A stretch of 36,265 bases of DNA from Arcicella sp. (GTDB lineage: Bacteria > Bacteroidota > Bacteroidia > Cytophagales > Spirosomataceae). The position numbers were made by a program, and so were the translations under genes. Position 1 is the first letter of the stretch. Every line of letters starts with the position of its first letter. The notes beneath the pieces are model-generated. The model was given only the letters and a program-made list of their open reading frames with translations, did not search any database and had not been told where the DNA came from. Of this stretch, positions 1 through 30,652 are shown one piece after another. The stretch lies in NCBI GenBank assembly GCA_025454855.1, contig JALONS010000010.1, positions 1-36,265 on the forward strand. The letters run 5' to 3'.

Positions 1-1597
1 TTAAAGCTATTGACGTAGGGTGGCAAGCAACACTCCGCTCAAACATACTCACCAAGGTTGAAGCAAAACTATAATCCCGAAACGTATGACAATGATGACT
101 TAATAGTTTTAATTGTGTTTCAGGATTTAAAAGCGATAAATCGTCTATATTGTTAGTTGGATTTTCAACTATTTCATTTAGAATATTTTGGAAATAAGAT
201 AACAACTGCTCCGCTCTTTCATGACTAAATAATTGGGTATTATATTTCCATAAACCAACCATTTTCTCTCCATCATCACACAATTCTAAAGAAGTATCAT
301 ATTGCCCTTCTAATTGTGGTAAATCAAGCGGTATTAAGGTTAAATTTTTGTACGAATAGGCTTCCTCGTTGGGGTTGGGCATAAATAGCTTTTTGATTTC
401 CCCAACGCCTTCTAAATTTAAATAATTAAAAAGGACTTGAAATACAGGTGATACATTGGTATTTCTTGGTAAGTCTAAATCCTTAACTAATTGTAGGAAA
501 GGATATTCTTGATGTTGAAAAGCCGATAAAATAGTTTCTTTATTAGTCTTCAAGAAACCTACGAAATCTTTCGATTCTGTAAAATCAGCACGCATGGGTA
601 GTAGATTGACAAAATGCCCGATCGATTTTGAGAAATTTGCATTAAGTCTACCAGAAGAAACAGGAGAGCCAACAATAATGTCGTCCTGACCACTAATTCG
701 ATAAAGAAAAACTTGAAAAATGGATAACAAAGTAGTGTAGAGCGTACAATTATTAGCCTTTGAAAACGCTTTTAGGCTCAAATACAAACCTCTGTTTAAC
801 TCAAAGGTTATCTTATTTCCAAAGAGTGAAGGTAAAGCAGGGCGTTGTTGATCATTTGGTAAGTTAAGAGTAGGAATTTCTCCTAATAATTGATTCTGCC
901 AATATTTCTTTAATTTTTTTCCTTCCTCTCCTAAGATTATTTGTTGTTGTTTTTTTACAAAATTTATGTATGATTCATCAACTTGCGAGTTTCGGAACAA
1001 TGTAAAATTTTCAAATGAATCATACGATTCTAAAATCTCCTGAACCAATAAAACTAATGAGTAAGCATCTACTGCAATGTGATGAAAATTCAATAACAAT
1101 ATCGTTTCATCATCATTTACCTTGAAAACATGAATCCTGAAAACGGGTTCATTTTCTAAATCAAAGGGAAGTTGATATGTTAGTTTTAGGCTTTTATAGA
1201 CATCTTCACGAGTCCACCCAGAAGCTTCAATTTGATGAATGATAACCTCTTGATGAGTATTAATTTTTTGACATGGTACATCATCTTGAATAACAAAATT
1301 TGTTCTAAGAATTTGATGAAAATCAACTTTTTCTTGAAAAACTTTTCTAAAAACTTCTACATCAAATTTTGAGGTAATTTTAACAGCAAAGCCCACATTG
1401 TAAGCAGTATTTCCTTCAAAAGTTTGATTGATAATCCATAGAGATTCTTGATTATAGGACATTCGCTGCAAACCATTCTCTCTCATTCTTTTTTCAGCCA
1501 GAAGCCTTTTGATAAGCTCAGACTTATCTTCTCGTAAAAATTCACTTCTTGAACCAATATCCTTGGTATGTAACGGCTTATTTTGAATGGGATTCAT
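1..1597 (-). CDS. Non-ribosomal peptide synthetase, N-terminal condensation domain and start of an adenylation domain; truncated by window left edge
   Basis: Own translation of minus strand from ATG at 1595-1597: MNPIQNKPLHTKDIGSRSEFLRE...; C-domain motif NFHHIAVDAYS (HHxxxD), GHFVNLLPMRADF motif, then A-domain-like start TLVSMFERSVACHPTSIAL at the edge. Not in ORF track because no stop is in the window. Confidence 0.93.
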   Translation of the reverse strand, partial: MNPIQNKPLHTKDIGSRSEFLREDKSELIKRLLAEKRMRENGLQRMSYNQESLWIINQTFEGNTAYNVGFAVKITSKFDVEVFRKVFQEKVDFHQILRTNFVIQDDVPCQKINTHQEVIIHQIEASGWTREDVYKSLKLTYQLPFDLENEPVFRIHVFKVNDDETILLLNFHHIAVDAYSLVLLVQEILESYDSFENFTLFRNSQVDESYINFVKKQQQIILGEEGKKLKKYWQNQLLGEIPTLNLPNDQQRPALPSLFGNKITFELNRGLYLSLKAFSKANNCTLYTTLLSIFQVFLYRISGQDDIIVGSPVSSGRLNANFSKSIGHFVNLLPMRADFTESKDFVGFLKTNKETILSAFQHQEYPFLQLVKDLDLPRNTNVSPVFQVLFNYLNLEGVGEIKKLFMPNPNEEAYSYKNLTLIPLDLPQLEGQYDTSLELCDDGEKMVGLWKYNTQLFSHERAEQLLSYFQNILNEIVENPTNNIDDLSLLNPETQLKLLSHHCHTFRDYSFASTLVSMFERSVACHPTSIAL

Positions 1598-1677
1598 TAC
1601 TTATCACGAGAATAGATTAAAATGATACACTTCTATATTTTTTGATGCAAAGAATCTGTAATTGAGTTCCTTCGTGT

Positions 1678-3834
1678 TTAATAAACTGCTTGTTCAGACA
1701 ACAAACTTTCTAATAAATTCTCAATTTCTTCTGATGAAAGGTTTTCTATATCTATTTCATTTTCAAGAGGTTGTACCTGCCCCAACATAAATTTATTATT
1801 CTTTTTGCTCACTAAAAGATTTACTAATTCTTGTACTGATATACCATCTAAGAACTCACGTATCTCAATTGGAATTCCTAATTCTCTTTCAATTCTATTG
1901 CTCAACTGCATACCCATCAACGAATCAAATCCCATTTCAATAAATGATGCGTTAAGAGGGATTTTTTCAGGATTTAATAAGATTGTTTCAAATATTAAAT
2001 TATGGCAGTATTTGAGCATCAATTCATACTGATTTTCATTATTTGTATGAAGCAGTGCATCTAAAATAGAATTTACTTTTGGGGCATGAGCTTCATTTAT
2101 CTCTGCTTCACTTGCAAAAATTTTCTGTGCTATTACATTTAACTCTTTGTTCAAAAACGCCTCTTTACAAGCACTATGCTGTATTTTTCCACTGGATGTT
2201 TTAGGGATACTCATTACTCTGAGCAATACAATTGCATGAGGCACAATACCATGTTCAAGTGAAACCGCTTGTCTGATAGCTTGGTACACTTCCTCAACGT
2301 TAATATTATTTGTATATACACGTTCAACTTCTTGAAGTACAATTAGCTTTTCATCTCCTTCTACTTCAATCGAAAAAACCGCTCCACAACCAGCCCTAAG
2401 AGTATGATGACTTTCTTCAACGGTCAGCTCAATATCCTGAGGGTAATGGTTTACGCCACGAATAATCATCATATCTTTCATTCGACCCGTAATGTATAAA
2501 TGACCCTCATTCAAGAACCCTAAATCACCTGTTTTGAAATATTTTTTATCAGGAAATCCACTTAATGTAGCCCCAAAAGCACTTTCTGTCAATTCTGGCA
2601 TATTCCAATACCCTTTAGCAATACTTTTACCCGAAACCCAAATTTCTCCTATACAATTTTCTGAAAGTTTTTCATGAGTATGAGGATTGGAAATAACAAT
2701 TTCTTGTTGACAAAAAGGGTCTCCACAACTCACATAACCTCTGGACAATTCCTCTTTCTGAGTTACGAAAGAAACTTGATTAACTTTTACTTTGTCTTTA
2801 TTCAAATATTTTACAATAGGCAATGTTTGTGCCTTACCACCAGCTGCCAACAATGTAGTTTCGGCCATACCGTAGCAAGGGTAAAAATTTTCTATTTTAA
2901 ACCCAAATGAACCAAATTTTTCAGCAAAACTTTGCATTGTTTCCATCCTAACAGTTTCTGCCCCATTGCTTGCTAACTTCCAAGAACTGAGGTCAATTCC
3001 TTCCATTTGGTCGATACTTATATTTTTTACGCATAAATCATAGGCAAAGTTCGGTGCTGCACTGGTTGTAGCCCTATATTTAGAAATTGCCTTGAACCAC
3101 CTGATAGGCTTTTGTATAAATGCCTCTGGAGTCATGAATACACAATACGCTCCTGTGAAAATGGGTTGTAAAATACCACCAATCAAACCCATATCATGAT
3201 AAGGAGGTAACCAAATGACTCCCACCATATCTGAATCCGACTCGAAACCCTGCTGGATTTGCTCTTGATTATGAAGAATGTTTAAATGAGTTATCATTAC
3301 TCCTTTGGGGATTCCCGTTGAGCCAGAGGTATATTGAAGAAAAGCTACATCATCTAAGTTTGCTTTGGGTGATACCCATTGCTCAACTAAACTCAAATCA
3401 TCAAAATCACTAAAAGAGCATAAATCAATACCTCTAAGAATATTTGAAGTTTCAAATTGGGCTTTATCAACAACTTTATTGTGAACCATGGCAAGTTTGG
3501 CACCCGAATCACTCACAATTTTTTCGATTCTATTAAGAGATTGATTCTTACGAATTGGATATGCTGGTACTGCAATTGAGCCAGCATAAAGACATCCCAG
3601 AAAACAGACAATATAATCAAGCCCGTATGGATAAAGTAACAAAATTCTCTCACCAGCCAGTCCCATTTTCTGTAGATTAGCACCTACTAATTTTGCCTTA
3701 AAGTCAAGCTCTTTATAAGTAATATGAGTTTCTTCATCCGTTCCATCAGTTAAAAAAGTATATGCTCTCTTATCGGGATTGAGGAGTGCATGATGTTGAA
3801 GCACTTCAACAAAAGTATTTTCTGACTTAATCAT
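1678..3834 (-). CDS. Fatty acyl-AMP ligase (FAAL) with C-terminal acyl carrier protein domain
   Basis: LQYTSGSTGIPKGVMITH AMP-binding motif, YKTGDLG, FAAL-type N-terminus (YPYGLDYIVCFLGCLYAGSIAVPAYP), C-terminal carrier motif MGFDSLMGMQL. Confidence 0.95.
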   Translation of the reverse strand: MIKSENTFVEVLQHHALLNPDKRAYTFLTDGTDEETHITYKELDFKAKLVGANLQKMGLAGERILLLYPYGLDYIVCFLGCLYAGSIAVPAYPIRKNQSLNRIEKIVSDSGAKLAMVHNKVVDKAQFETSNILRGIDLCSFSDFDDLSLVEQWVSPKANLDDVAFLQYTSGSTGIPKGVMITHLNILHNQEQIQQGFESDSDMVGVIWLPPYHDMGLIGGILQPIFTGAYCVFMTPEAFIQKPIRWFKAISKYRATTSAAPNFAYDLCVKNISIDQMEGIDLSSWKLASNGAETVRMETMQSFAEKFGSFGFKIENFYPCYGMAETTLLAAGGKAQTLPIVKYLNKDKVKVNQVSFVTQKEELSRGYVSCGDPFCQQEIVISNPHTHEKLSENCIGEIWVSGKSIAKGYWNMPELTESAFGATLSGFPDKKYFKTGDLGFLNEGHLYITGRMKDMMIIRGVNHYPQDIELTVEESHHTLRAGCGAVFSIEVEGDEKLIVLQEVERVYTNNINVEEVYQAIRQAVSLEHGIVPHAIVLLRVMSIPKTSSGKIQHSACKEAFLNKELNVIAQKIFASEAEINEAHAPKVNSILDALLHTNNENQYELMLKYCHNLIFETILLNPEKIPLNASFIEMGFDSLMGMQLSNRIERELGIPIEIREFLDGISVQELVNLLVSKKNNKFMLGQVQPLENEIDIENLSSEEIENLLESLLSEQAVY

Positions 3835-3942: not shown

Positions 3943-5325
3943 CTAATAAATTGATGAAAGTCTTTGGGTAAGTGCTGACTTGATAAGATCTATTCCATCA
4001 TTAAAGTCGTTATTAGTCGTTATCGCTGATTTCATATTTTCTATATTTGTTTTGTATGATAAATCAAAAAGTATTGAATCAGACTTCTTTTTTATCTTTT
4101 TACAATTATCGTAGTTTATTTTACCCCTTAACCCAATTTTATGAAATACAACTCTGGCGGCATTTCCTGGTTGATCAAAACGATTACTCAATGGATAAAC
4201 CAACATAGGAACTCCTAAAAGAATACATTCTACAATAGAAGAAATTCCACCGTGAGTAATCATCATATTAGCATGCCTCAACACTTGTAACTGTGGTACT
4301 CGTTGAAAAATAAAAATATTTTCAGGTACGTTTTCAAAGTCATTTTCTGTTAGTTTATCACCTACCGAAAGAATTAACCTGTATTTATTGTTGCTTCCAA
4401 AAGCTTCAATAACTTTTCTGAAAAAGTGAAGCGGGTTTCCATATTGAATCGCCGCAAGCGTGCCAAGTGAACAATAGATAAGTACTTGTCCAGATTCTGT
4501 TTTCAAAGATTCTTTAAAACGAAGTTCATTATCAGGCATTTTTTCATATCGGTTCAAATCCACTACTGAACCGATGTTAATTTGATTAGGATGTTTGTCT
4601 CTCGGAAAATCAAATTCTTTTGGAATTGCCACAATTTCAGGCAAATTATTAAATCCTATGTGAAAGGCCTTATTGAATTCTATTACTTCACTTAAAGGAA
4701 ATTTATTCTTTTGAGCTAACAAACTTGTAAGTGAGTAAATCCTTAACCTTTCTTCAAAACTTACTGAAAAAAATTTTATATAAATTTCATTTTCAAGAAA
4801 TAACCTAACTCTATGTCTAATCCAAGTCCATCTTGATTTCCAGTGAGACCACTTAGAGTCATTTGGTATCATGGATGAAGTACACACTGGTACATTAAAA
4901 GCCTTGGTCATAGGTACAAAAAGCGTATAAAAAAACATGGGAATTTTATACTTTGATAACAAAATTGCGTCAATTGTATAATGTGTATCTAAAATTAGCA
5001 AATCCGGTTTGATTCTATCAATGATTTCATCATAGATTTCTTCCTCAAGAATCCACTTATCAATTCTTGATAGATAATTAAAATGTTTTTTTATTTTTCC
5101 ATAAATATTAAACTGAGCTAACTTTCTAACGTCAGGTTTGGGAAAATGATCAAAACCTATTGGTTCGACTTCAAAACCTTGTTTCCCAACTATATCAATG
5201 ATTGACCCATTTGTAACATCAATATAAATTATTCGGTGTCCCAAATCTTTAAGACTCCTCATAACTTTGAAGGTCGAATTCAAATGGCTCGTAGCGGGAT
5301 GAATTATCAATGTAATAGTTGCCAT
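3943..5325 (-). CDS. GT1/MGT-family glycosyltransferase (paralog of 28101-29498)
   Basis: UGT/MGT signature THGGISSIVECILLGVPMLVYPLSNRFDQPGNAARV; IYCSLGT motif. Confidence 0.88.
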   Translation of the reverse strand: MATITLIIHPATSHLNSTFKVMRSLKDLGHRIIYIDVTNGSIIDIVGKQGFEVEPIGFDHFPKPDVRKLAQFNIYGKIKKHFNYLSRIDKWILEEEIYDEIIDRIKPDLLILDTHYTIDAILLSKYKIPMFFYTLFVPMTKAFNVPVCTSSMIPNDSKWSHWKSRWTWIRHRVRLFLENEIYIKFFSVSFEERLRIYSLTSLLAQKNKFPLSEVIEFNKAFHIGFNNLPEIVAIPKEFDFPRDKHPNQINIGSVVDLNRYEKMPDNELRFKESLKTESGQVLIYCSLGTLAAIQYGNPLHFFRKVIEAFGSNNKYRLILSVGDKLTENDFENVPENIFIFQRVPQLQVLRHANMMITHGGISSIVECILLGVPMLVYPLSNRFDQPGNAARVVFHKIGLRGKINYDNCKKIKKKSDSILFDLSYKTNIENMKSAITTNNDFNDGIDLIKSALTQRLSSIY

Positions 5326-5574: not shown

Positions 5575-5580
5575 ATGCTT

Positions 5581-6498
5581 TTATCTAAATTGTGCCATGA
5601 AATACTGCAATTTTGTTTTTTCTCCCAATATTTGATTAACCCTTCTATGATACTCGGGGTATTCTTTTTTGAGAACGGACGAAAGTGTATTGCATTTAGA
5701 AAGTTGTCGTTTAAAAGAACCTACTAAATGTACATAATTCAAGTCATTAGACCCCATTTTATTGAATTGAGATATGGGTTTATAATCCGAGAACTGTTCA
5801 GTATCTTTCGTAAAATAATCAATATCTATTTTAGCTTTTTGAGCCATACAAATAAGGAGAAATTGCTCAAAGACGCAGTTGAAAAACTGAAAGTCTTTAT
5901 CTGAAGCATAGGTAAAATATTCTTGTGCGAAGTGTAGTGCTTCTTTGGAAAATTGTTTTATGAAGTCGATATTGTTTCCTCCAAAAATACCCATATTTGA
6001 GGCTAATATATGGTTCGTTTGGCTTAAATAATCTTTAATCTCTGTTGGCAAGTAATTTTGGGTTTTAATGATTGCTTTCATTGCTGAATGATAACAATCA
6101 AAATTCACCTCTAAGTTTTGAGAAATTATTGCTGCTTTTTCTAAAGATTCTGTAAATGGTTTTGAAATAAAGATGTCTCCATCAATATGTATAAAAGGTT
6201 TATCCTGAAGGCTATAACTGATGAGTTTAGCAATAGCCCAAAATTGCCAAGGGTAACCATTGATATCATCGAGAACGACTTTTACGCTTGTATATGGGAG
6301 TTTTAATTCATCAATTAAAAGTTCTTTCCCCAGGGAATCTGTAACAAGTTCAACTTCATCATAATATTCTCTTAACCTCAAACAGCTCAAGGCCCAACTC
6401 ATATAGTGATGATTTGTTGTGAGCCAAGCCGACCTAAAAGTCTTTAAATCGGCTAAATCTACAACATTACAAGTCCAAAATGTTTGTACAATTTTCAT
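5581..6498 (-). CDS. DUF6734-like putative GT-A glycosyltransferase (paralog of 6583-7527)
   Basis: MKIVQTFWTC N-terminus, DxD-like motif FIHIDGDIFISKP; close similarity to the adjacent ORF along its length. Confidence 0.65.
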   Translation of the reverse strand: MKIVQTFWTCNVVDLADLKTFRSAWLTTNHHYMSWALSCLRLREYYDEVELVTDSLGKELLIDELKLPYTSVKVVLDDINGYPWQFWAIAKLISYSLQDKPFIHIDGDIFISKPFTESLEKAAIISQNLEVNFDCYHSAMKAIIKTQNYLPTEIKDYLSQTNHILASNMGIFGGNNIDFIKQFSKEALHFAQEYFTYASDKDFQFFNCVFEQFLLICMAQKAKIDIDYFTKDTEQFSDYKPISQFNKMGSNDLNYVHLVGSFKRQLSKCNTLSSVLKKEYPEYHRRVNQILGEKTKLQYFMAQFR

Positions 6499-6582: not shown

Positions 6583-7527
6583 TCAAAACATTCCACTGGG
6601 AGCAGGTTCAAAGTATAGTTTTAAATGATTCCGTTTTCCTAAAACTTGATTTATTCTTTTATAATATTTTTGATAGCGAGTTCTCAAAACAAACGCCAAT
6701 TTTAGACAATTTAGATATTCACGTTTATGATAGCCTCCTAAATGAACGAACCCGTACTGGTTATTTCCTCTGAAATTGATTTTAGATAGTGGATCATCAA
6801 AGTTAAACTTGTTATATTTTTTTGAGTCAATTTCAAAAAAATATTGTATCGGTATTTTCTTAATATCTGCCATGCTATGCATTAACTCTTGTTCAAATAA
6901 TGTATTAAAGAAAGGCAGATTTTCATCTGTAGAATCAGAGTAAAATTCTTTTGAAAAATCCATTGCTCTACTGGAATAGTCTTTTATAAATTCAATATTA
7001 TTTCCGCCAAAGATTCCCATACAGGAGGCTAAAGGCTTATTATTAATACTTCTTTGGGATAATATTTCAGTAGGGATTTCTCTTTTAAAGTCCAAAGCAG
7101 CATCAAGTGCTATTCTGTAGCAGGTGTAATCATCTTCAATATTTTGAGATAAGATTTCAGATTCGTGTATCGATTGTGAAAACGGTTTTGATATAAAAAC
7201 ATCGCCATCAACATGAATAAATGGTGAATCCTGCAAACCATAGGCAACTAATTTGGAAGTTGCCCAAAAACGGTTTGGACAACCTTCTAATTTTTCATCA
7301 AGGACAACCTTTACGCTTGTGTAAGGTAAGCCCAATTCGTCTATTAAAAGTTGCTTACCTACTTTATCAGTAACTAATTCAACATCATTATAGAAGTTCC
7401 GGAGCTGAAGACAGCTCAGAGCCCAGCCCATGTAATGGTGATGATTAGTAAGCCAACCAGACCTAAATTTTTTAAGCTCTTGTATTGTATCAATTTTACA
7501 ACTCCAAAACGTTTGAACAATTTTCAT
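6583..7527 (-). CDS. DUF6734-like putative GT-A glycosyltransferase (paralog of 5581-6498)
   Basis: MKIVQTFWSC N-terminus, FIHVDGDVFISKP DxD-like motif; ASCMGIFGGNNIEFIK conserved between paralogs. Confidence 0.65.
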   Translation of the reverse strand: MKIVQTFWSCKIDTIQELKKFRSGWLTNHHHYMGWALSCLQLRNFYNDVELVTDKVGKQLLIDELGLPYTSVKVVLDEKLEGCPNRFWATSKLVAYGLQDSPFIHVDGDVFISKPFSQSIHESEILSQNIEDDYTCYRIALDAALDFKREIPTEILSQRSINNKPLASCMGIFGGNNIEFIKDYSSRAMDFSKEFYSDSTDENLPFFNTLFEQELMHSMADIKKIPIQYFFEIDSKKYNKFNFDDPLSKINFRGNNQYGFVHLGGYHKREYLNCLKLAFVLRTRYQKYYKRINQVLGKRNHLKLYFEPAPSGMF

Positions 7528-7551: not shown

Positions 7552-9948
7552 TTACTTAACTCTATTTTTTTCTGTTTCTGAACCCACAACTCTATTTCTA
7601 TTTGATTTAAGAATACTATTTCCAAAAGAGTAGCTAAAAGAGAGACGAGCGTCTCGTGAATCAGACAAACGTCTATATTGCAAATCAATATCTTTGAACC
7701 TAATATTGCCTGTTACATTGGTTGTATAGAAAATATCGTTCAAAACAAAGGCTAATCTTGCTCTATTGTTCCACATTTTTTTCGCAATTACAAAACTCAG
7801 ATACCCTGATTCTTGTCCTTCAAAGAATCCTTGAATAAATGGAGACATATAATGTGCATGTAAATCTGCTGAAACGGTTTCTGAAACTTTAAAGAAAAGA
7901 TGTGCTGCTCCGCCCACAGTCCACTTACTGACATCATAATTTTCATTCAAATAATTCGCCTGATAATGGTTTTTAATAATTTGGGTACCTCCAAAACCTG
8001 TAATCCTGCTTCCAAAATTTAAAGGAAAATTCACCTCAAAAACTGTACTGCTCAATGAAGCAATATTTTGAGACTGGGTGAAAGTAATATTCCCCTCTTG
8101 TCGGGGGGCATCAATAATAATATCACTGGTATTATTTGTACTTACTGACAAAAATGGAAGACCATCATAAACTAAGCCAAGTTTAGAAGAAGTAATCATT
8201 TCAGGAAGTAAAAGTGGGTTCCCTTGTTGATACGTTAAAGGATCCATAAAAAACTTAAATGGATTTTGCTGTTGATAACTTGGTCTATTCAATCTTCTTC
8301 CCACCGTACCAATAAGGGTGAAGTGTTCTCCCATTTTTTTAGAAATGAATACACTGGGAAATGGTTGCCAATAGTTTCTATCCAAAACATTTACTCCTCC
8401 CGAATTACCCTGTGCGATAGTCTGTTCTGCTCTCATACCAATCTGCAAATCCCATGTTCTCCATTTTTTAAAATAAGTCAAATAAACTGAATTAATTTTT
8501 TCTGTATATAGAAACTGATTCGTTTTGAGAACATCAATTACTTCATTTTGAGTAAATTTCAAATCATAATCAATATTAGCATCGCTCAACTTCAGACCCA
8601 ATTCAATTTTCTGGTTATTGATGAATGGTAAGGAATAATCTACTTTAAATGTCTTGAAATTTACAGGATTAATAACTGTTTGCGTATTTTTAGTAACTGT
8701 CCCCAAATTCTCTTTGTAAAGAATCCGAAAGTTGTTATTACTATTAATATCATAGACACCTTGATCAAAATCAATGTTTAATTCATGCCCCGTAGAATCG
8801 AAGTTATGTTTCCAATTTAAGTTATAAGCATAATTTGTACGGTTAGTTTCTTGGGAATTTAGTGATGAAAACTCTGAAATTAATTCATTATTGCTTTTTA
8901 AACGTTGCTGGGTAAAATTCTGAAAATCACCTAATTCATTCCGAGTATTCCATGAAATTAATGCACCAAAAGTATTTTTATTATTTAAGCTAAAATCAGC
9001 TCCGGCTGACAAACTATTGGAGGAATTTGAAGATGGATTAAAATTCTTTTGTGAATAAACATTATCTTTTATAAAACGATTAAGCTCCGTTTGTTCAAAT
9101 TGATATCTGTTTGAATAATTGTAATTTCCAAAAAGATTCCATTGCCCTTTACGATGATTCAATGATATACCTGGACTATAAGCAGTAAACCAACGATTTG
9201 TGTTAGTTTCACCAACTTGTAGGCTATAAGGGTATGCCTTGCCTGTCAAAGAAAATGACCCGTTTGTGCCTAAATTGGCATTCTTTTTCATAATGATATT
9301 TATGATTCCACCCCCAGAGGCATCAAATTTTGCAGATGGATTAGAGATAACCTCAATTTTTTCTATGTTACTACTTTGTAGGGTTCGCAATACCATACTT
9401 ACGTCCGTATATTTTGAAGATCGTCCATCAATCATGACAGTAACACTTGACTTCCCAACCATTGAGACCCCGTCGTTAATCACAACAAGCCCCGGAACTC
9501 TTTGCATGACCTCTAAGGCAGTTAGCCCCATTGAACTCAGGGTTCCTGCAATATTTACAACTAATTTATCGACTTTTTGCTCCAAAAAAGGCTTTCTTGC
9601 ATTCACGGTTACTTCTTGAAGCAACTTAGATTCAGGTAGAATCTGAATTTCAATGCTTTTTTCGGAAGCCTTAGTTAATTCAAAAGGTCTTGAATATGTT
9701 TTCTGATAACCAATCATTGAACACAAAAGAATATAATTACCCTCTACAACATTTTCAAAATTATAAACCCCGTTAATATCACAGAGAGTTGCTTTGATAA
9801 AAGTTGAGTCTTGAGATTTATATAATGAAACAGTTACAAAACCTGCTGCATTATTTTTTTCATCTTTTACTTTTCCTGAAATTTTATTCTGGCTGAATGC
9901 TTGAAATACGCTCAGGTAAATCAACATGAAAAACAGTTGCATTTTCAT
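7552..9948 (-). CDS. Outer-membrane beta-barrel protein, TonB-dependent-receptor-like with N-terminal carboxypeptidase-regulatory-like domain
   Basis: Signal peptide; NKISGKVKDEKNNAAGFVTVSLYKSQDSTFIKATLCDINGVYNFENV; plug region (VMQRVPGLVVINDGVSMVGKSSVTVMIDGR...ASGGGIINIIMKKN) and long beta-rich barrel. Confidence 0.9.
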   Translation of the reverse strand: MKMQLFFMLIYLSVFQAFSQNKISGKVKDEKNNAAGFVTVSLYKSQDSTFIKATLCDINGVYNFENVVEGNYILLCSMIGYQKTYSRPFELTKASEKSIEIQILPESKLLQEVTVNARKPFLEQKVDKLVVNIAGTLSSMGLTALEVMQRVPGLVVINDGVSMVGKSSVTVMIDGRSSKYTDVSMVLRTLQSSNIEKIEVISNPSAKFDASGGGIINIIMKKNANLGTNGSFSLTGKAYPYSLQVGETNTNRWFTAYSPGISLNHRKGQWNLFGNYNYSNRYQFEQTELNRFIKDNVYSQKNFNPSSNSSNSLSAGADFSLNNKNTFGALISWNTRNELGDFQNFTQQRLKSNNELISEFSSLNSQETNRTNYAYNLNWKHNFDSTGHELNIDFDQGVYDINSNNNFRILYKENLGTVTKNTQTVINPVNFKTFKVDYSLPFINNQKIELGLKLSDANIDYDLKFTQNEVIDVLKTNQFLYTEKINSVYLTYFKKWRTWDLQIGMRAEQTIAQGNSGGVNVLDRNYWQPFPSVFISKKMGEHFTLIGTVGRRLNRPSYQQQNPFKFFMDPLTYQQGNPLLLPEMITSSKLGLVYDGLPFLSVSTNNTSDIIIDAPRQEGNITFTQSQNIASLSSTVFEVNFPLNFGSRITGFGGTQIIKNHYQANYLNENYDVSKWTVGGAAHLFFKVSETVSADLHAHYMSPFIQGFFEGQESGYLSFVIAKKMWNNRARLAFVLNDIFYTTNVTGNIRFKDIDLQYRRLSDSRDARLSFSYSFGNSILKSNRNRVVGSETEKNRVK

Positions 9949-21998: not shown

Positions 21999-22922
21999 CT
22001 ATTCAACTGTAAAATGATTTTCAAAAGTGTGTTCCTTCGCTAATTCTTTTTCAACAAAATCATTCAAAATCTTTTGCCTAATTGATTTTTCTACTTCCGA
22101 CTTTTTGATATTTTTCATGCAAAGTCTGTTGTATGGACATTCATCATCTCCTAAAATATCTACACAGGGAGAGCAGAGAGTTTTTTTATAAATATTAGTA
22201 TTTGAACTATATCCCCAGATGGCTGGATTTGAGGGTCCAAAAAGAACAACTGCTGGTACACCAACCGCTACTGCTGCGTGACCTAAAAAAGTTTCAACCC
22301 CGACAAACCCTTTCATGTATTTTAGCATAGCAACCGACATTCTAAGTGAGGTTTTACCCCGAAAGTCCACCGTACCTTTTATGTAGGGTTCATCTGCAAG
22401 ACCAAGTTGTATGAACGTAACATCAGGCATGTCATGCACTAACTTTTCCCATTCAACCAAGTCCCATTCTTGGTTTTTTGTGGTTCTTGAGGTCGGGTTA
22501 ATAGCAATGGGATTATTATATTTTTTTACGATTGCTCGGGCTTCTATTTCTTCTTCAGGTGTCAAAAACATTTGAGGTTTTATATCATTGACTTCCACTT
22601 CCATCATTTCACCAACAATTTTGGCGGCTGACATTTCATAAAAAATACTTGGGCGTAGGAGTCCATAGCATAACCATTCATAATTTATGGTTTTAACCAG
22701 TAAATATTGAACCATCTTGTTCAACTTAGTGACCCATGAAGGCAGCTTTCTAAGTGTGTCAATATTAGGGTTATGTTTAAAAATATCATAATGGCTTGAA
22801 TGTGTACACAACAATGAAATTTTACATTCTGGATACTTTTCTTTGAGAGCTTTGAATGTTGGAGTTGATAACAAACTATCGCCAACGCCACCCCATGATA
22901 GTATTTTAAATGTTTTTTGCAT
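21999..22922 (-). CDS. GT9-family (heptosyltransferase-like) glycosyltransferase
   Basis: WGGVGDSLLSTPTFKALKEKYPECKISLLC; FVGVETFLGHAAVAVGVPAVVLFGPSNP; CSPCVDILGDDECPYNRLC. Confidence 0.88.
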   Translation of the reverse strand: MQKTFKILSWGGVGDSLLSTPTFKALKEKYPECKISLLCTHSSHYDIFKHNPNIDTLRKLPSWVTKLNKMVQYLLVKTINYEWLCYGLLRPSIFYEMSAAKIVGEMMEVEVNDIKPQMFLTPEEEIEARAIVKKYNNPIAINPTSRTTKNQEWDLVEWEKLVHDMPDVTFIQLGLADEPYIKGTVDFRGKTSLRMSVAMLKYMKGFVGVETFLGHAAVAVGVPAVVLFGPSNPAIWGYSSNTNIYKKTLCSPCVDILGDDECPYNRLCMKNIKKSEVEKSIRQKILNDFVEKELAKEHTFENHFTVE

Positions 22923-23322: not shown

Positions 23323-23335
23323 ATTATCTATCCGT

Positions 23336-24955
23336 TTAAGCAAAAACTTCTTCTTTGAATTTTGAATACAAAATCTCTTTTTCTCCAAAAAGACGTTCAG
23401 CAATTATTCCTCTCTTTGAACAAGTCTCTAACAGTTTATTGGAAGCTACAATCGGATTTGAATCATCAGTATATTTGATACTACTGATAAATTTCAACCA
23501 AGGTTCTTGCCCCATAGCATACACGTATGCTTCTAAGGGATTAAAAGTATCAATAATTGCCATTCCTCTGTCATAATTAGACCCTGCGAGTCTTCGAGAA
23601 TTATCCTTTTCTCGGGATAGTTCGTTCATCAGTAATGGACCATATAGCCAACTCAAAGGGGCTCCATCACATTCCATTCCTAACATTACAACATCCACAT
23701 CACCTGTCTGTTGATGTACCCGTTCATAAAGTTTAGGCTCTATATTACAAGAATCAGCCACAAACAATATTGAAAATTCTTGAATTTTTACTAAATAACA
23801 AAGTTTGGTTTTTATATCTAAATCACTATGTTCTCCCACAAAAGGTATTCCCATAATATCGCAATCATCAAAGGAAATAGTATCCATTTCATCAATTTCT
23901 ACAATATTTTTAAAACCAATATTCTTGAACATTAAGCCTAAATTGGGGTCTTGAAGAGTCCCTGAATTTGTTCTGGGAATTACTAAGTTTTTAATCCTAT
24001 GCCGTAGTGGAAGAAGCGTTTCAAAAAGAATATGGTCTTGATGGTTATGTGTGATAAGTACATAATCAATCTCATCTGGCAAATCAAAATCTGAGAATCT
24101 TTCAACCTCTGTTTGATAGCCATAATAACTCACGATGGGGTCAATCAAAATACTGACTCCTTTGGTTTCAATTAATACACAAGCATGACCAAAATATCTC
24201 ATCCTAATAAATTCTCCCTCGTAGTTTTCGTATGAAGGAGGAGCTTCTTCAGTAAAAAACGACATAAATAATGGCATATCTTCTTCGTCAATATCAATCA
24301 AATCAAAAACTTTCGATAGATATTCTGGCTTTCTTTTCATACCAGCTAAAACATCAATAACACTATGACTGAAAGGAATATTTAAGTAAACTGAGTTTTT
24401 GTCTTTCAAACGTGGTGTACTCAACACAAAGGGGCGTTCATCATTATCTGTCAGCCACATAGCTATTCCTTGAGCAGTTGTATCATAATATTCACTTTTG
24501 TAGAGCAGAGACTCAAAGAATCTAAAAGAAGGATTTCCATTAATATCATATACCAATTCAACAAAACCTTTTAAAATTTCTGGTACTTTCTCATAAAGCG
24601 GTTCTAATGAATATCCATGAGCATTTGCTTTGAGCATACTATCTAATTCTTTGACTGCTTCAGAAAAATCTAACATCCTCTGGCGACTAATAATTGTTTC
24701 CTCTTTTAATGTCTTTACATCTTCAACCCTTTCCTTGGGAATATCCATAAAAGGTCCACCTAACATTTTAGGATTCTTTACAGCAACTTCATGCACCTGT
24801 GGTGCTTGAATGAAAGAATTCATAATTTTCAGATGGCGACCAGTAATATTCAAAGCTGCTGTTGCTGGAGAAACTAAATGACTCCAAGCATACCAACGGT
24901 CAATCAATGGTTCAATCACAACATTGGAAAGTAAGTATAAAGGTTTGTCAAACAT
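23336..24955 (-). CDS. CmlA-type diiron NRPS amino-acid beta-hydroxylase (MBL-fold C-terminal domain)
   Basis: N-terminal IEPLIDRWYAWSHLVSPATAALNITGRHLKIM...AVKNPKMLGGPFMDIP typical of the CmlA-like family; MBL motif LITHNHQDH, GEHSDL, ADSCN; SRRLAGSNYDRG...YVYAMGQEPWLKF. Confidence 0.83.
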   Translation of the reverse strand: MFDKPLYLLSNVVIEPLIDRWYAWSHLVSPATAALNITGRHLKIMNSFIQAPQVHEVAVKNPKMLGGPFMDIPKERVEDVKTLKEETIISRQRMLDFSEAVKELDSMLKANAHGYSLEPLYEKVPEILKGFVELVYDINGNPSFRFFESLLYKSEYYDTTAQGIAMWLTDNDERPFVLSTPRLKDKNSVYLNIPFSHSVIDVLAGMKRKPEYLSKVFDLIDIDEEDMPLFMSFFTEEAPPSYENYEGEFIRMRYFGHACVLIETKGVSILIDPIVSYYGYQTEVERFSDFDLPDEIDYVLITHNHQDHILFETLLPLRHRIKNLVIPRTNSGTLQDPNLGLMFKNIGFKNIVEIDEMDTISFDDCDIMGIPFVGEHSDLDIKTKLCYLVKIQEFSILFVADSCNIEPKLYERVHQQTGDVDVVMLGMECDGAPLSWLYGPLLMNELSREKDNSRRLAGSNYDRGMAIIDTFNPLEAYVYAMGQEPWLKFISSIKYTDDSNPIVASNKLLETCSKRGIIAERLFGEKEILYSKFKEEVFA

Positions 24956-24979: not shown

Positions 24980-25702
24980 TTAAACTATTGCTCTCTGCAA
25001 CAATTGCTCTATCCTATCCTTCATTTCAGTAATAATTTCGGCAGTATGATTGTAGATAAAAAAATGGTCGCCTTCGTATTGCTTCACGGTTGTTTCTTCA
25101 GTGCTTTCATGTTGCCAAGTCTGTGCTTCTTCAAGGTTGGTATCATCTGCTGTTCCAATTCTTACTTCCATTGGAATTGACCATGGTTGTGTAAGTTCAT
25201 ATTCATATTTTTCGACAGCCTCAAAATCTGCTTTCAGGATTGGTAGGTAGAATTCAAGTATCTCTGAATTCTTTAATATCTCGTCAGGTAATCCCCCCAA
25301 GATTTTCACTTTTGAGATGAAATCATCATCTGGTAAAAGATAATAATTATCATTTTCTCTTTTAACAGAAGGACCTCTACTTCCTGTTAAGAATAACATC
25401 AATGGTGGATTCAGAAAACATTCTGTAATTCTTTTTGTCACTAAGTAGGCAATTAGAGTACCCATACTATGACCATAAATCACATATTGAATGTTACTAA
25501 TTTCATCTTTAATTTGACCAAACACATCTTCGACAATAGCATCAATATCTGTCAATAGATTTTCTTTCATTCTTTTGCCTCTTCCAGGAATTTCAAGCGG
25601 AATAATTTTGAAATCATCAGAAGCATAACTCATGTAATTCCGATACGAGTAACTACTTCCACCAGCAAATGGCAATAAGAATACTGTAACTTGGCTATTC
25701 AT
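24980..25702 (-). CDS. Type II thioesterase
   Basis: FLLPFAGGSSYSYRNY, IPLEIPGRGKRMKENL, YGHSMGTLIAYLV, GDHFFIYNH. Confidence 0.95.
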   Translation of the reverse strand: MNSQVTVFLLPFAGGSSYSYRNYMSYASDDFKIIPLEIPGRGKRMKENLLTDIDAIVEDVFGQIKDEISNIQYVIYGHSMGTLIAYLVTKRITECFLNPPLMLFLTGSRGPSVKRENDNYYLLPDDDFISKVKILGGLPDEILKNSEILEFYLPILKADFEAVEKYEYELTQPWSIPMEVRIGTADDTNLEEAQTWQHESTEETTVKQYEGDHFFIYNHTAEIITEMKDRIEQLLQRAIV

Positions 25703-25746: not shown

Positions 25747-27078
25747 CTATCGTGATGCCAAGAAAAGGGTAACTTTAGAATATGCCACACCTGCGTGTTG
25801 AATTTCAGCTAAATTGGCTATTGTAGCAATAGAGGCTTTAACTACATTACTTGCAAATGCATAATTATATTTTTTTGAAGAATTATCATTTTTAAGAATA
25901 ATTTTATCTCTTGTATAACCCGTATCATTAATGTCTATTGCCTTCAATTTACCGTACCAAAACGCTACATGGTCGCTTGTGGCAAGTTCAGGGGTTAGTT
26001 TACCGTCACGTGGGGTTACTAATGAAATTAATTTCAAATCAGGAACAAACTGTTTGACATTTTTATCAAATTCATTCATCAAGGACACTGAATTTTCATT
26101 TGATACATTTAGAATAAAATCTCCTTTATATTGATTGTTTTCAAGATATTGAGCCTGCTCTGGAAACAACAATTCAAACCCTTTTGGGAAAGATTGAGAC
26201 CATGGCACAGGTCTATAATTACTAATTCCATCTAAACAAATTGCACCCTCCATCTTCTCATTTTCTTTCAATCCGCCCTCAAAAATATACTTTACACAGC
26301 CCGTAGATTCTTTGAATTTCAAATCAAAACCTGCAAAAACCACCGTTTTCTTAAACTGATATTGAGATAAAATCCGTGAAGCTTCTATAAGCCCTGCCAC
26401 TCCTGAACTATTGTCATCACTACCTTTTGTTTTGTCTTGATTATCAAAATTAGCACTTAGGATATAAAAGTTTTGTTCCTCAAGATTCCCCAATTTTTTA
26501 CCGAAAATATTGAAAGTATTATATTGACCAATGGAAAACTCTTGCTTATCTATAAACAATTTTTGCTCAGTGAAATTTTTAACAATATAATTCCTTGCTT
26601 TTGTTAGACCAATCATTCCGTCAAGGGTTGCAGGATAACGATTACCTAATAAATGTTCTACTGATTTTTGTAATCTAACTGTATCTACTTGATTTATTAA
26701 ATCGAAAATATTTATTTTGAAAAGGTCATCTGCTACGAGTTTCACATAGAAATTTCCAATAGATTCTGAACTATTCTTATAGTTCCAAATTATTTTTTTA
26801 TCATTCCCCACCTCAATATCTTTTCCAATATCGCCCATAGCACTCGCAATATCTACATTAAACGTTTGTCCATTATCATTTGAGACATTTAAAGAAATGG
26901 TTATTTTTTCATTTTCTACATCTTTCAAATCATATGTAATTTGCAATTCTTTCTTTAAGGTATCATTTGAAACTCTCAAATTCAGTATTTGAGGTACTTG
27001 ATTAAATTTTGACTGAGCCTGAGAATACCAAAAACCCAAAATCAGTAATACGGAAAGAAAAATAGTTTTGATTTTCAT
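25747..27078 (-). CDS. Secreted M28-like peptidase-fold protein with degenerate metal ligands
   Basis: Signal peptide; FYILSANFDNQDKTKGSDDNSSGVAGLIEASRIL; AICLDGISNY; TSDHVAFWY. Confidence 0.82.
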   Translation of the reverse strand: MKIKTIFLSVLLILGFWYSQAQSKFNQVPQILNLRVSNDTLKKELQITYDLKDVENEKITISLNVSNDNGQTFNVDIASAMGDIGKDIEVGNDKKIIWNYKNSSESIGNFYVKLVADDLFKINIFDLINQVDTVRLQKSVEHLLGNRYPATLDGMIGLTKARNYIVKNFTEQKLFIDKQEFSIGQYNTFNIFGKKLGNLEEQNFYILSANFDNQDKTKGSDDNSSGVAGLIEASRILSQYQFKKTVVFAGFDLKFKESTGCVKYIFEGGLKENEKMEGAICLDGISNYRPVPWSQSFPKGFELLFPEQAQYLENNQYKGDFILNVSNENSVSLMNEFDKNVKQFVPDLKLISLVTPRDGKLTPELATSDHVAFWYGKLKAIDINDTGYTRDKIILKNDNSSKKYNYAFASNVVKASIATIANLAEIQHAGVAYSKVTLFLASR

Positions 27079-27085: not shown

Positions 27086-28096
27086 CTATTTAAATGATTG
27101 ATTTAATGCTCCAATTACCCATGTCTTGCCCCAATTTTCACGCTCTTGCTTTGTCCAAAGCTTGGGGAAAAATATAATTTTTTGAAAACGTGGGGGTAGA
27201 TATGCCTGCCAGTTAGTACCACCTGTACCTTCTTTTACTTCTACATTTGTTCGGAGGTGGCGAATAGCTGCCTTATAGTGTGCTAATCGCCAATCAATAT
27301 TAGCAAGCATATCCAATCTTCGTAACTCCATTACAACTTTTTCCCGCTCAGGGCTGGTTATGGTTTTAGAATCTAAATTTTTAAAAACCTGCCAAAGATT
27401 TTTATTTTCAAATTTGATAGCGTGGTTAAGTAATGTCCAATCATATTTTTCAATAAAATGTACCAAACTCAGGTCTCTTTTACCATTTTTAACGTCCGTC
27501 GCTCCTGTTTTCCAGTATATTTGATTATAAAGCTCCTTTAATTTGTTTCTTCCTTCTTCAAACGAAGGCTGTTCTCGATAAGATAAGGCTCTTAAATTTT
27601 CAAGATCCGTTGCCATTAATTCTATTTCTCTGAACTGTGCTGACTGAAAACCACTTGCAGGCCAAAGAGCGTATCTAAATTCCAAGAATTGCTTTTGATC
27701 AAGCCCATCAATCATAATATCAAAAGAGTATATTAAATTCTCGTAATATCTGTTCATTCGCATTAATCCAACAAGAAAGTCTTCATCACAAATATTTTTG
27801 GTACCTGTTATCTTTCTTATTTCACTAATAATCAACTTGAAGTATAACTCTGTTATTTGATGATAGACAATGAAAATCATTTCATCTGAAAATGTCGTTT
27901 TGGGATGTTGAATGCTCAACAAAGTATCAGTATGGATATAATCCCAATATTTGGTATGTTCGGTATAATAAAGTCTATCAAGATGACAGGCTATATTCTG
28001 ATCAACTTCTTTATACTTTTCACTTAGCCGAAACACTTTTTGCTGAATAGCGTCATCAATTACTAATGAGTCTTCCATAAGTTGTTGCTGGTTCAT
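27086..28096 (-). CDS. Tryptophan 2,3-dioxygenase family protein
   Basis: FIVYHQITELYFKLIISEIRKI; DWRLAHYKAAIRHL (heme His region); EGTGGTNWQAYLPPRFQKIIFFPKLW. Confidence 0.9.
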   Translation of the reverse strand: MNQQQLMEDSLVIDDAIQQKVFRLSEKYKEVDQNIACHLDRLYYTEHTKYWDYIHTDTLLSIQHPKTTFSDEMIFIVYHQITELYFKLIISEIRKITGTKNICDEDFLVGLMRMNRYYENLIYSFDIMIDGLDQKQFLEFRYALWPASGFQSAQFREIELMATDLENLRALSYREQPSFEEGRNKLKELYNQIYWKTGATDVKNGKRDLSLVHFIEKYDWTLLNHAIKFENKNLWQVFKNLDSKTITSPEREKVVMELRRLDMLANIDWRLAHYKAAIRHLRTNVEVKEGTGGTNWQAYLPPRFQKIIFFPKLWTKQERENWGKTWVIGALNQSFK

Positions 28097-28100
28097 ATTG

Positions 28101-29498
28101 TCAAATATATTGCTTCTCTCTGTGAAATATCTGAGAGTTGATTAAATCAATTCCTTTTTCAAAATCATTACTTTGACTTATTTTTTCTCTCATCTGTAGA
28201 ATTTTTTCTTTAAAAGATTTTGTGGTTAGAATTTGCTCGACTTTTGTTCTTATTACGTTAGCTTTATCTTTCCGAACGTCTCCTTTCAGACCCAACCCAT
28301 GATAAATTACTCTGGCAGCATTCCCTGGTTGATCAACAGCAGTTGGAAAAACAATCATCGGAACTCCTGAGAGAATACATTCTACTACTGACGACATACC
28401 TCCATGTGTAAGCATAACATGGGTGAATTCCAAAACTTCTAATTGTGGGACATTATTAGCAATGAAAATATTTTCGGGAACACTCTCAAATTTACCAATA
28501 TCAATTACCGAACCAACAGACATAATAACACTGTAATTCTCACTATTCCCAAAAGCTTTGATTACCTCACAAAAAAACTTAAAACATTCATTATATTGAT
28601 GCTGCGTTCCTAAAGAGCAATAAATCAAAGTTTTATGTTTTCTATCGCTGATAAAATCATTCAATTCATTACTCATGGGTTCCCTAATTCTATCAAAATC
28701 AATAGCATGACCAATATAATGTTCATTTGATTTAACACATCTTGGAAAATCAAAATCTTTTGGTGAGGAAATTAATTCTGGATAATTATTGAGTCCAATC
28801 CAAAAAGGTCTCCGAGAATCTGCCACTTTCTGCAATGGAAAGTTTTGAGCATTAGCAACTTTATGTAACCAATAATTTCGAGTCAATTCATTTGATAATC
28901 CGTTATTGGTGGGCAAAAACCTTCCCAAAACACTGTAAAACCAATTGTTTGTTTTTTTATAGATATTAAAAACCTCCCAAGTCATTTCCGAAATAAAGTG
29001 ACTATAGAAAGAATCAGAGGGTACAAAACTAAAGTGAAAATGTGGAATATTAGATGCCCGAGTTGCCGAGACAAAAACACTCCACATCATTATTGGAATT
29101 TTGTACTTAGCAAGAATAATAGCATCATAAATAAAATTAAAGTCCAGAATAATTAAATCTGGCTTAGTTGATTCTATAAAATCTGCATACATCTCTCCTT
29201 TCAAAACAAATAATTCTCTATCTTGAAAATATTGCAAGATATTTTTCAAATAGCTCATCTTTCTTCCGAAAAAACCATTATTCTTCAAACCTTTCGCTTG
29301 ATTAAAAACTGGAAAGTTAACGTTAGCTAATTTTGCAAATTCAAATCCTTGTTTTTCAATTTCGGCTTTAAATTTAGCATCGTGTGTCGAATCCAGATAG
29401 ATAATTTTATTTCCCAAAGACTGTAACCTTCTTGCGGTACGATAAGAAGTATTATAATGTCCTTGACCACTGTGAATGATAAATACAATGTTAGCCAT
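28101..29498 (-). CDS. GT1/MGT-family glycosyltransferase (paralog of 3943-5325)
   Basis: LIYCSLGTQHQYNECFKFF; LTHGGMSSVVECILSGVPMIVFPTAVDQPGNAARVIYHGLGLKG. Confidence 0.88.
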   Translation of the reverse strand: MANIVFIIHSGQGHYNTSYRTARRLQSLGNKIIYLDSTHDAKFKAEIEKQGFEFAKLANVNFPVFNQAKGLKNNGFFGRKMSYLKNILQYFQDRELFVLKGEMYADFIESTKPDLIILDFNFIYDAIILAKYKIPIMMWSVFVSATRASNIPHFHFSFVPSDSFYSHFISEMTWEVFNIYKKTNNWFYSVLGRFLPTNNGLSNELTRNYWLHKVANAQNFPLQKVADSRRPFWIGLNNYPELISSPKDFDFPRCVKSNEHYIGHAIDFDRIREPMSNELNDFISDRKHKTLIYCSLGTQHQYNECFKFFCEVIKAFGNSENYSVIMSVGSVIDIGKFESVPENIFIANNVPQLEVLEFTHVMLTHGGMSSVVECILSGVPMIVFPTAVDQPGNAARVIYHGLGLKGDVRKDKANVIRTKVEQILTTKSFKEKILQMREKISQSNDFEKGIDLINSQIFHREKQYI

Positions 29499-29527: not shown

Positions 29528-29872
29528 TCAGATAAATACATTTTCCTCTATACTTCTATCCACTTTTTGTTTAATCCTATCAACTTCTAACTCCGAAAGT
29601 CTCACTGGGTGTCCATCGAAAGAAACATAGTCAATTAAACCCTCTACTTTTACTAAAAATTTTTCTAAAACGTTATCTTCAAATTTGATAAAAACATAGT
29701 TTGGATATAATGGGTTATTATTTAAAAGTTTATTATTTTTTTCAGGATAAGGTGTAAAAGACTCATAACCCATGTCATTCATTCTTGTAACAACTCTATT
29801 TTCCTCATTTGATTCAGTATAACCAAGATACCAACCTGGTATGGTTATAAAATTTTTATTTTGCATTTTCAT
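29528..29872 (-). CDS. NusG-like (UpxY/LoaP/RfaH-type) transcription antiterminator, NGN domain only
   Basis: GWYLGYTESNEENRVVTRMNDMGYESFTPYPEK...LYPNYVFIKF...GLIDYVSFDGHPVRLSELEVDRIKQ; ends at 114 aa with no KOW domain. Confidence 0.85.
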   Translation of the reverse strand: MKMQNKNFITIPGWYLGYTESNEENRVVTRMNDMGYESFTPYPEKNNKLLNNNPLYPNYVFIKFEDNVLEKFLVKVEGLIDYVSFDGHPVRLSELEVDRIKQKVDRSIEENVFI

Positions 29873-29950
29873 GTTATTCTACGTTTAAATCAAAATGATT
29901 AGAGTATATTTTTACTAACGTATGTATATATACGCATTGTATTGTTGTTG

Positions 29951-30652
29951 CTAATCTCTGAAAATTATATCATCAAAATCTAAGAAATGAGTGTTTCTCC
30001 AAGAGTCATTTTGAGGTGTTTCAAAGGCTCTAATAGCTTCTATCGTTTCGTCCTTGTTAAAAAAAACATTATTACTATTGCTTTCTAAAAATAATTCTTT
30101 TGATTTCTTATACCAGTATTGAGATAATTTGTCATAGAAGGCAATCTTTGTCAAAAAAAACATAGTTTGATATAACAATGCAACACCGATAGTGCCAGTT
30201 CTAAAATCTGCTGATAGATTTGTATTTGAAAAATCTTCTTCCTTATATTTAGTTACCATACCAATCATATTAGCTAAATGAAATAATTTTTCATTTTTCA
30301 ATATCAGTGATACTCTTAAAACCAAGAGTGCAATTTGTAAGTCTCCGTATGTGTAAGTAACTTTTTCATCAATAAGAATGACTTTATCTTCAACTTCAAT
30401 GGGAAGTAACGTAAAGTTCATTTTCTCAAAGTTCATAGGCATCAAGAATCCTAAAATTACCTGTATTCCTTCTTCTAAAACTTCTTTTATTTCAGCCTTC
30501 TGGGAAGCACTACAGACTGTATATTTTCTTATTAATAAATTCAATGAATGGCACAATCCAGATTCATCAGTTGTAAACTTTGCTTTTCCGCCCAATCTTA
30601 TATTTGTAATAATTTTATTACACTGTTCTAAATATTGAGTGAAATCATTCAT
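29951..30652 (-). CDS. LanC-like (lanthionine synthetase C-like) protein, short and lacking zinc ligands
   Basis: TYTYGDLQIALLVLRVSLILKNEKLFHLANMIGMVTK aligns with LanC W-C-Y-G-D-L-G-I region; DFRTGTIGVALLYQTMFFLTKIAFYDKLSQYWYKKS aligns with L-C-H-G-x-A-G-I-A region. Confidence 0.6.
   Translation of the reverse strand: MNDFTQYLEQCNKIITNIRLGGKAKFTTDESGLCHSLNLLIRKYTVCSASQKAEIKEVLEEGIQVILGFLMPMNFEKMNFTLLPIEVEDKVILIDEKVTYTYGDLQIALLVLRVSLILKNEKLFHLANMIGMVTKYKEEDFSNTNLSADFRTGTIGVALLYQTMFFLTKIAFYDKLSQYWYKKSKELFLESNSNNVFFNKDETIEAIRAFETPQNDSWRNTHFLDFDDIIFRD

Follow-up and report, generated by a model that had tools for sequence, protein, structure and literature searches.

The stretch analysed here (the window, 36,265 nucleotides) is a complete contig, JALONS010000010.1 (C29 below), of a metagenome-assembled genome (MAG; 474 contigs, 84% complete) of Arcicella sp., family Spirosomataceae, and it carries a long run of minus-strand genes that breaks off inside a nonribosomal peptide synthetase (NRPS). 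The window is probably (about 70%) the upstream tailoring-and-loading part of an NRPS-polyketide synthase (PKS) cluster of ~80 kb, whose product would be a lipopeptide initiated by a fatty acyl-AMP ligase (FAAL), containing kynurenine or 3-hydroxykynurenine, β-hydroxylated, carbamoylated and glycosylated, and finished in the periplasm by a MauG-like enzyme. An earlier sequence-only reading had proposed a glycosylated, fatty-acylated nonribosomal peptide; this is well supported by the FAAL, the tryptophan branch, synteny and the rest of the line, and glycosylation is probable. The same reading recognized no product class for the gene combination. As a statement of uniqueness this does not stand, since the cluster family is also present in at least five other genomes of Bacteroidota and glycosylated kynurenine lipopeptides, the gausemycins, are known.

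Loading and the assembly line

The genes that connect the window to an assembly line are as follows.

1678..3834, minus strand: FAAL fused to an acyl carrier protein (ACP), for loading (AMP-binding, DIP2-like and PP-binding domains; FAAL models)
2..1597, minus strand: first NRPS protein, a condensation (C) domain and the start of an adenylation (A) domain, cut by the contig end (PF00668, 1.8e-101)
10068..10769, minus strand: 4'-phosphopantetheinyl transferase (PF01648)
24980..25702, minus strand: type II thioesterase with GHSMG intact (PF00975, 1.3e-33)

The FAAL with its ACP directly precedes the first C domain, as is expected of a FAAL-initiated lipopeptide NRPS. It had been described as standing immediately before a C-A NRPS; the C domain is there, and of the A domain the window holds only about the first 35 residues. 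Domain searches upheld the identities given earlier to the FAAL-ACP, the C domain, the phosphopantetheinyl transferase, the type II thioesterase, the CmlA-type hydroxylase, the tryptophan 2,3-dioxygenase (TDO) and the di-heme CCP_MauG protein.

Continuation of the line beyond the left edge was traced through k-mers at contig ends. C29 and contig C336 have the same 99 bases at their left ends, and this 99-mer falls where an A domain begins. Contigs C170 and C272 have another 99-mer in common, inside a thiolation (T) domain. The two positions together point to one repeated A domain (~1.6 kb by position) that was collapsed in the assembly; the missing repeat contig was looked for in the MAG and was not found. 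C272 encodes C / A-T-C-A-T-C-A-T-C-A-T / TubC-C-A-T and, at its end, a carbamoyltransferase. C336 encodes KS-T-T-C-[A], with the ketosynthase (KS) part, KS-T-T-C, first. On C170, T-C-A-T is followed by two multi-module proteins with a PF00756 release domain at their end, and an ABC transporter comes next.

The k-mer graph by itself permits two contig pairings. In one of them, C29 would lead to C170 as a short lipopeptide line with PF00756 release, and C336 would lead to C272 as a separate cluster. This is unlikely. In Fibrella, Spirosoma and Lewinella a KS-T-T NRPS comes after the carbamoyltransferase, corresponding to the passage from C272 to C336, and the Cytophagales cluster fits this order; moreover, the Lewinella counterparts of C272_2, C272_3, the carbamoyltransferase, C336, C170_2 and C170_3 stand one after another in this same sequence. 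Thus a single NRPS-PKS line of ~80 kb is favoured by k-mers and synteny, in the order C29, repeat, C272, an IS-like gap, C336, repeat, C170. C272, C336 and C170 each have a multi-copy repeat at the outer end, and for this reason we infer the join of C272 to C336 from synteny. An NRPS ending right after the left edge would have spoken against the earlier reading; on the same evidence it instead continues, via the collapsed repeat, into C272, and the candidate downstream line has its own release domain.

A-domain codes were read by motif alignment to GrsA, and residues were assigned from published codes and general background. The codes suggest the line Tyr-Ser-Ser-Cys, Asn, Gly, DAVIITGVG, Ser, DAVIVTGIG, Orn, in which the last module has the Orn-like code DVGEIGSID and is followed by the PF00756 domain. 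In the KS-T-T module of C336, the acyltransferase remnant reads GVGIGK in place of GHSxGE, and the Cytophagales and Lewinella homologues are degenerate at this site as well.

The tryptophan branch and β-hydroxylation

Three genes of the window would supply or modify aromatic and β-hydroxylated residues.

27086..28096, minus strand: TDO of a cluster-specific clade (alignment; tree)
13433..14815, minus strand: kynurenine 3-monooxygenase (KMO), likely start ATG at 14773 (PDB KMO, E 7.7e-88)
23336..24955, minus strand: CmlA-type diiron β-hydroxylase, HxHxDH intact (PF18456, 6.6e-93; PDB 8a90, 2.8e-147; 4jo0, 1.5e-120)

Aligned to 2nox and 2nw7, the TDO keeps the distal His, the heme His, the substrate Arg and the GTGG motif; its score of 101.8 does not reach the NCBIfam cut-off for canonical equivalogs (390.7). 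In a tree of 41 sequences, the seven TDOs from NRPS loci cluster together (99/98), separate from the 34 others, a grouping to be read with caution for its long branches. The best PDB relatives of the FAD enzyme are KMOs, and thus the pathway goes past kynurenine to 3-hydroxykynurenine. The tryptophan-to-kynurenine enzymes proposed earlier are confirmed for TDO, and the branch is extended by one step. TDO occurs in 36 of 222 genomes of the family and in none of seven other species of the genus, from which KMO is also absent.

A TG-type (kynurenine-like) A-domain code is found in four of five TDO clusters (two in the window genome, two in Spirosoma, one each in Fibrella and Lewinella) and in 0 of 154 A domains of CmlA-anchored 20-kb loci, a set that includes TDO-cluster pieces without the TG-code module. 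In the line of the window genome these codes are DAVIITGVG and DAVIVTGIG, both on C170. The former equals the known kynurenine code, DAWTTTGVG (PMC9113097), at six of nine positions. Our best guess from these codes is that the product contains kynurenine or 3-hydroxykynurenine residues.

Both the CmlA_N domain and the HxHxDH metal site were found in the hydroxylase by domain search and alignment. CmlA is rare in the family (4/222 genomes) but common across Bacteroidota.

The same enzymes might instead build a quinoxaline/3-hydroxyquinaldate-type starter as in echinomycin: CmlA would hydroxylate carrier-bound Trp, the type II thioesterase would free β-hydroxy-Trp, TDO would open the ring and the FAD enzyme would rearrange it, giving a product with an aromatic chromophore and not kynurenine. 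Echinomycin and triostin biosynthesis indeed has parallel functions, namely carrier-bound β-hydroxylation, a type II thioesterase, TDO and an FAD oxidoreductase (PMC3578932); moreover, CmlA and the type II thioesterase are adjacent in many loci, and TDO directly adjoins CmlA in a second Lewinella locus. However, those systems use a P450 for CmlA, start from an A-T didomain with MbtH and lack FAAL, whereas here the FAD enzyme is a KMO and the starter is already supplied by FAAL. The stand-alone A-T didomain protein and the pathway dehydrogenase are absent from the contigs examined, and KMO is absent from the stretch of the Lewinella cluster examined. This origin is therefore quite improbable. 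Membership in the quinoxaline/quinaldate group was rejected on the absence of the stand-alone A-T didomain, MbtH and P450 among the window's open reading frames (ORFs) and in the domain lists of C170, C272 and C336.

Glycosyltransferases

Six glycosyltransferases had been counted in the window. Four of them hold.

3943..5325, minus strand: UDPGT/MGT-type glycosyltransferase 1 (PF00201; MGT, 4.8e-31)
28101..29498, minus strand: UDPGT/MGT-type glycosyltransferase 2 (PF00201, 1.9e-18; MGT, 1.8e-41)
20706..21614, minus strand: GT9 glycosyltransferase (PF01075)
21999..22922, minus strand: GT9 (heptosyltransferase-like) glycosyltransferase (PF01075)
5581..6498, minus strand: DUF6734 protein a, with a homologue in the Fibrella cluster (PF20508)
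6583..7527, minus strand: DUF6734 protein b (PF20508)

The other two are the DUF6734 proteins, whose role as glycosyltransferases is unproven: a DGD stretch (FIHIDGD/FIHVDGD) is the sole pointer that suggests it. A DUF6734 profile found nothing in the PDB, and the AlphaFold model (pLDDT 35) was too poor for a fold search.

The periplasmic set

Eight genes of the window would serve export and the periplasmic steps.

14944..15933, minus strand: MauG/MbnH-like di-heme c-type protein, two CxxCH, axial Tyr289 (PF03150, 1.7e-49)
25747..27078, minus strand: secreted M28 peptidase homologue, metal ligands lost (PF04389; alignments)
18653..20179, minus strand: secreted class-C β-lactamase-like protein, catalytic Ser replaced by Ala (PF00144, 9.1e-41)
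15947..17848, minus strand: secreted esterase homologue, nucleophile Ser replaced by Gly (PF00756)
17926..18549, minus strand: YceI lipocalin-like protein, secreted (PF04264, 1.9e-24)
20229..20657, minus strand: DUF2147 protein, secreted (PF09917, 2.5e-37; N-terminus)
10936..13383, minus strand: MacB/DarB-type ABC permease (PF12704; DarB model, 1.1e-26)
7552..9948, minus strand: outer-membrane β-barrel protein, OMP_b-brl_3 (PF14905, 1.7e-74)

The di-heme MauG-like protein named earlier is borne out by its CCP_MauG match, its two CxxCH motifs and its axial Tyr289. The axial Tyr is present in all six cluster homologues and in the MbnH-like structure 6e1c, whereas classical di-heme peroxidases have Met there. 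The protein may thus work like MauG or MbnH, although it is filed as neither. Relatives of MauG have been implicated in the oxidation of Trp to kynurenine in CorA/MopE (PMC3912023).

Three degenerate hydrolases had also been noticed, correctly. The SxxK motif of the β-lactamase-like protein reads AISK against SITK in 2qmi, and its Tyr motif is also lost; the Fibrella homologue retains the Ser, and the Tyr motif is absent from both copies. The GxSxG motif of the esterase reads GIGQG against GLSMG in 3doh, and the nucleophile Ser is gone in five of the six cluster homologues. The metal ligands of the M28 protein are gone in four of five cluster homologues, and no relative of this protein was found in the PDB. 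Signal-like N-termini are seen on the M28, β-lactamase-like, DUF2147, YceI, esterase and outer-membrane proteins. A β-lactamase-like homologue (40%) with SISK intact lies beside a MacB-type permease in another genome (G183, contig C34, L177), with no homologues of the window NRPS found nearby.

Related clusters and the gene run

Among 80 CmlA loci, a few have the unusual genes of the window. In a Lewinella MAG the homologous cluster is whole and unbroken on one strand of one contig of 97,685 bp, CALMYQ010000200.1, in the order NusG, phosphopantetheinyl transferase, SbnA/B, TDO, FAAL, PKS, NRPS, carbamoyltransferase, KS..NRPS, M28, ABC, type II thioesterase, esterase, MauG, CmlA and outer-membrane protein; OMP_b-brl_3 homologues come after CmlA in the Cytophagales cluster as well. 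Fibrella aquatilis has 17 gene families of the window on two contigs (C14, C64): M28, two UDPGT, KMO, CmlA, GT9, β-lactamase-like, YceI, carbamoyltransferase, KS-T-T NRPS and a NusG paralogue, together with NRPS, TDO, MacB permease, FAAL, esterase homologue, MauG (52%), type II thioesterase and DUF6734. In a Spirosoma MAG, one contig bears TDO-M28-KMO-NRPS and another bears NRPS, ABC, type II thioesterase, CmlA, phosphopantetheinyl transferase, esterase, MauG, outer-membrane protein and histidine kinase. Parts of the cluster also occur in one Cytophagales and one Saprospirales MAG. Clusters with homologues of SbnA/SbnB, the genes for 2,3-diaminopropionate (Dap), namely those of Lewinella and Cytophagales, also have the A-domain code DIWELTADD; this code is absent from the lines of the window genome and Spirosoma, and the window yielded no SbnA/SbnB homologue. 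The second NRPS locus of the Lewinella MAG (contig C101, L224) has SbnA/SbnB-like genes and two CmlA genes, one of them being the neighbour of TDO.

Three further genes complete the run in the window.

29951..30652, minus strand: first gene of the run, 233 aa, no family match (AlphaFold pLDDT 48, too poor for a fold search)
29528..29872, minus strand: UpxY/RfaH-type NusG paralogue, NGN domain only (PF02357, 1.7e-11; UpxY model, 6.9e-11)
21611..21874, minus strand: 87-aa protein, no family match

By ORF and domain reading, the run from 30652 down to base 2 holds 24 plausible genes, every one on the minus strand, and the intergenic gaps are, as had been described, mostly short (4-170 nt); two are bigger, 5326-5580 (255 nt) and 22923-23335 (413 nt). 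Plus-strand ORFs inside the run are only 81-126 aa long (at 9239, 11807, 16080 and 30378), and each overlaps a confident minus-strand gene. Random orientation would fall far short of producing such a run (2^-23 if genes were independent, which they are not); conservation of the gene set in other genomes carries more weight. The proposal of a ~30-kb single-strand operon therefore keeps its same-strand run, which is here the upstream part of ~80 kb and not a 30-kb unit. Scans of the window for promoters, terminators and Bacteroidota -7/-33 elements gave numbers at chance level, and a single transcript is thus not established; an Rfam search of the window gave no RNA family. Known RfaH/UpxY biology makes the NusG paralogue a presumed processive antiterminator of a long transcript, with which its position is consistent, and longer NusG-like homologues head the Spirosoma and Lewinella clusters. 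The copy in the window is NGN-only with 114 aa; those in related clusters have 172-179 aa.

With its two bigger gaps and no operon evidence from the scans, the run might be several transcription units, a mosaic of unrelated genes in which YceI, DUF2147, the β-lactamase-like protein and M28 are unconnected with the peptide. However, other genera again have homologues of M28, esterase, MauG, YceI, β-lactamase-like protein, GT9, UDPGT and DUF6734 next to these NRPS genes, and little credit can be given to this view.

Outside the run, two LytS-like His_kinase proteins and a LytTR response regulator (31022-33927, plus strand) diverge from the cluster, and homologues of the kinase and LytTR are also on the Spirosoma cluster contigs. 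The right part of the window has an AAA-ATPase_like/PDDEXK_9 protein (34617-36137, minus strand), and a direct repeat, GTGAAACGCTTTCACTTTTAGGAAAATAGTCT, lies within the last 110 bases of the contig.

Evidence against the kynurenine lipopeptide

Several points weigh against the reading given at the outset. The repeat contig is missing, hence the contig joins are inferred, and the Spirosoma and Fibrella clusters are each divided between two contigs. With a match of only six positions to the kynurenine code, the A domain could select Trp; a TG-type code was not found in the Cytophagales cluster, which is incomplete, and a formamidase was not identified among the window genes. The MauG-like protein falls below the NCBIfam cut-offs for both MauG (183.4 vs 443.85 bits) and MbnH (183.8 vs 362.85). 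Spirosoma retains the esterase Ser and the His/Asp of M28, so that a scaffold role of the degenerate hydrolases cannot be general: catalytic loss is frequent, and as a universal rule it was ruled out.

Finally, a C-terminal fragment of kynureninase at a contig end elsewhere in the genome (C384:7-504) makes a catabolic use of TDO and KMO possible, and related TDOs are common in the family, mostly outside clusters; that the two are ordinary tryptophan catabolism genes in the run by chance, next to an NRPS product without kynurenine, is nevertheless very improbable, since homologous clusters in at least six genomes contain a TDO of one clade, both genes are missing from the other seven species of the genus, and kynurenine-like codes track with TDO clusters. 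The genome with the kynureninase fragment has its only TDO and KMO inside the cluster.

Proposed pathway

For the kynurenine lipopeptide, biosynthesis would begin with FAAL, which charges its ACP with a fatty acid; the acid would then be coupled to the first amino acid by the starter C domain. TDO and KMO would make kynurenine and 3-hydroxykynurenine from Trp, to be activated by the DAVIITGVG and DAVIVTGIG A domains of C170. CmlA would β-hydroxylate a carrier-bound residue, and the type II thioesterase would free stalled carriers. Going by the codes, the line would then run Tyr-Ser-Ser-Cys, Asn, the KS-T-T step, Gly, Kyn-like, Ser, Kyn-like and Orn before release by the PF00756 domain, with decoration by the carbamoyltransferase and the UDPGT/GT9 enzymes. 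Maturation of pyoverdine takes place in the periplasm. Similarly, the peptide may be exported by the MacB-type permease and the ABC transporter, after which the secreted MauG-like enzyme would oxidize an aromatic (Trp/Kyn/Tyr) residue, while the degenerate hydrolase homologues, YceI and DUF2147 would act as binding or holding partners before outer-membrane passage. What is observed in all this is gene content, synteny, residue states and the TDO clade; the contig order, the substrates and the periplasmic step are deduced. This periplasmic step is drawn by analogy with pyoverdine and with MauG, MbnH and CorB (PMC3912023). In its specific form, with the enzyme finishing the peptide at Trp, kynurenine or 3-hydroxykynurenine residues (a crosslink, a phenoxazinone-like ring or a kynurenine metal site) and the pseudo-hydrolases as peptide-binding partners, it is a tentative and rather doubtful proposal.

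Comparison with known systems and significance

The gausemycins of Streptomyces are likewise fatty-acylated kynurenine peptides; they carry 4-Cl-kynurenine, and gausemycin A is a lipoglycopeptide whose cluster has TDO (PMC12471526, PMC9558223). In the same way, the daptomycin group, including taromycin, comprises kynurenine lipopeptides with FAAL/ACP initiation (PMC9113097). These systems are, however, actinobacterial, and in the parts available CmlA, a MauG-like enzyme, a carbamoyltransferase and a pseudo-hydrolase set are not described. Their kynurenine code is DAWTTTGVG against DAVIITGVG here, and the line of the window genome ends in Orn and PF00756. The gausemycins have their product logic, but not their gene content, in common with the window cluster. 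Membership in the daptomycin family was rejected: in place of a DptD-type termination dimodule (Kyn and thioesterase), the last module is the Orn-like one.

The chitinopeptins and other CmlA-bearing lipopeptides come from the same phylum and share NRPS and CmlA-type β-hydroxylation (PMC9248904); unlike here, Dap is present, its SbnA/SbnB genes having no homologue found in the window, and kynurenine and FAAL have 0 occurrences in that article. MauG, MbnH and CorB resemble the window protein in their two CxxCH hemes, axial Tyr and secretion, and CorB and relatives have been proposed to convert Trp to kynurenine (PMC3912023), but their partners are proteins (methylamine dehydrogenase, MbnP/CorA) and not nonribosomal peptides, and the window protein scores below the family cut-offs. 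A literature search, with MIBiG outside it, found no description of this cluster family, which looks undescribed although each building block is already known.

The finding adds a conserved Bacteroidota lipopeptide cluster family marked by TDO, CmlA, carbamoyltransferase and the KS-T-T module. The Lewinella contig offers an unbroken copy for reference, and for chemistry there is Fibrella aquatilis HMF5036, a named and sequenced strain. Two questions are raised by it: why hydrolase homologues of the same cassette lost their catalytic residues repeatedly, and whether the periplasmic tailoring of nonribosomal peptides is among the tasks of MauG-type di-heme enzymes. If the latter is true, it would be the first use of MauG chemistry in the maturation of a nonribosomal peptide, possibly for a metal-binding lipopeptide.

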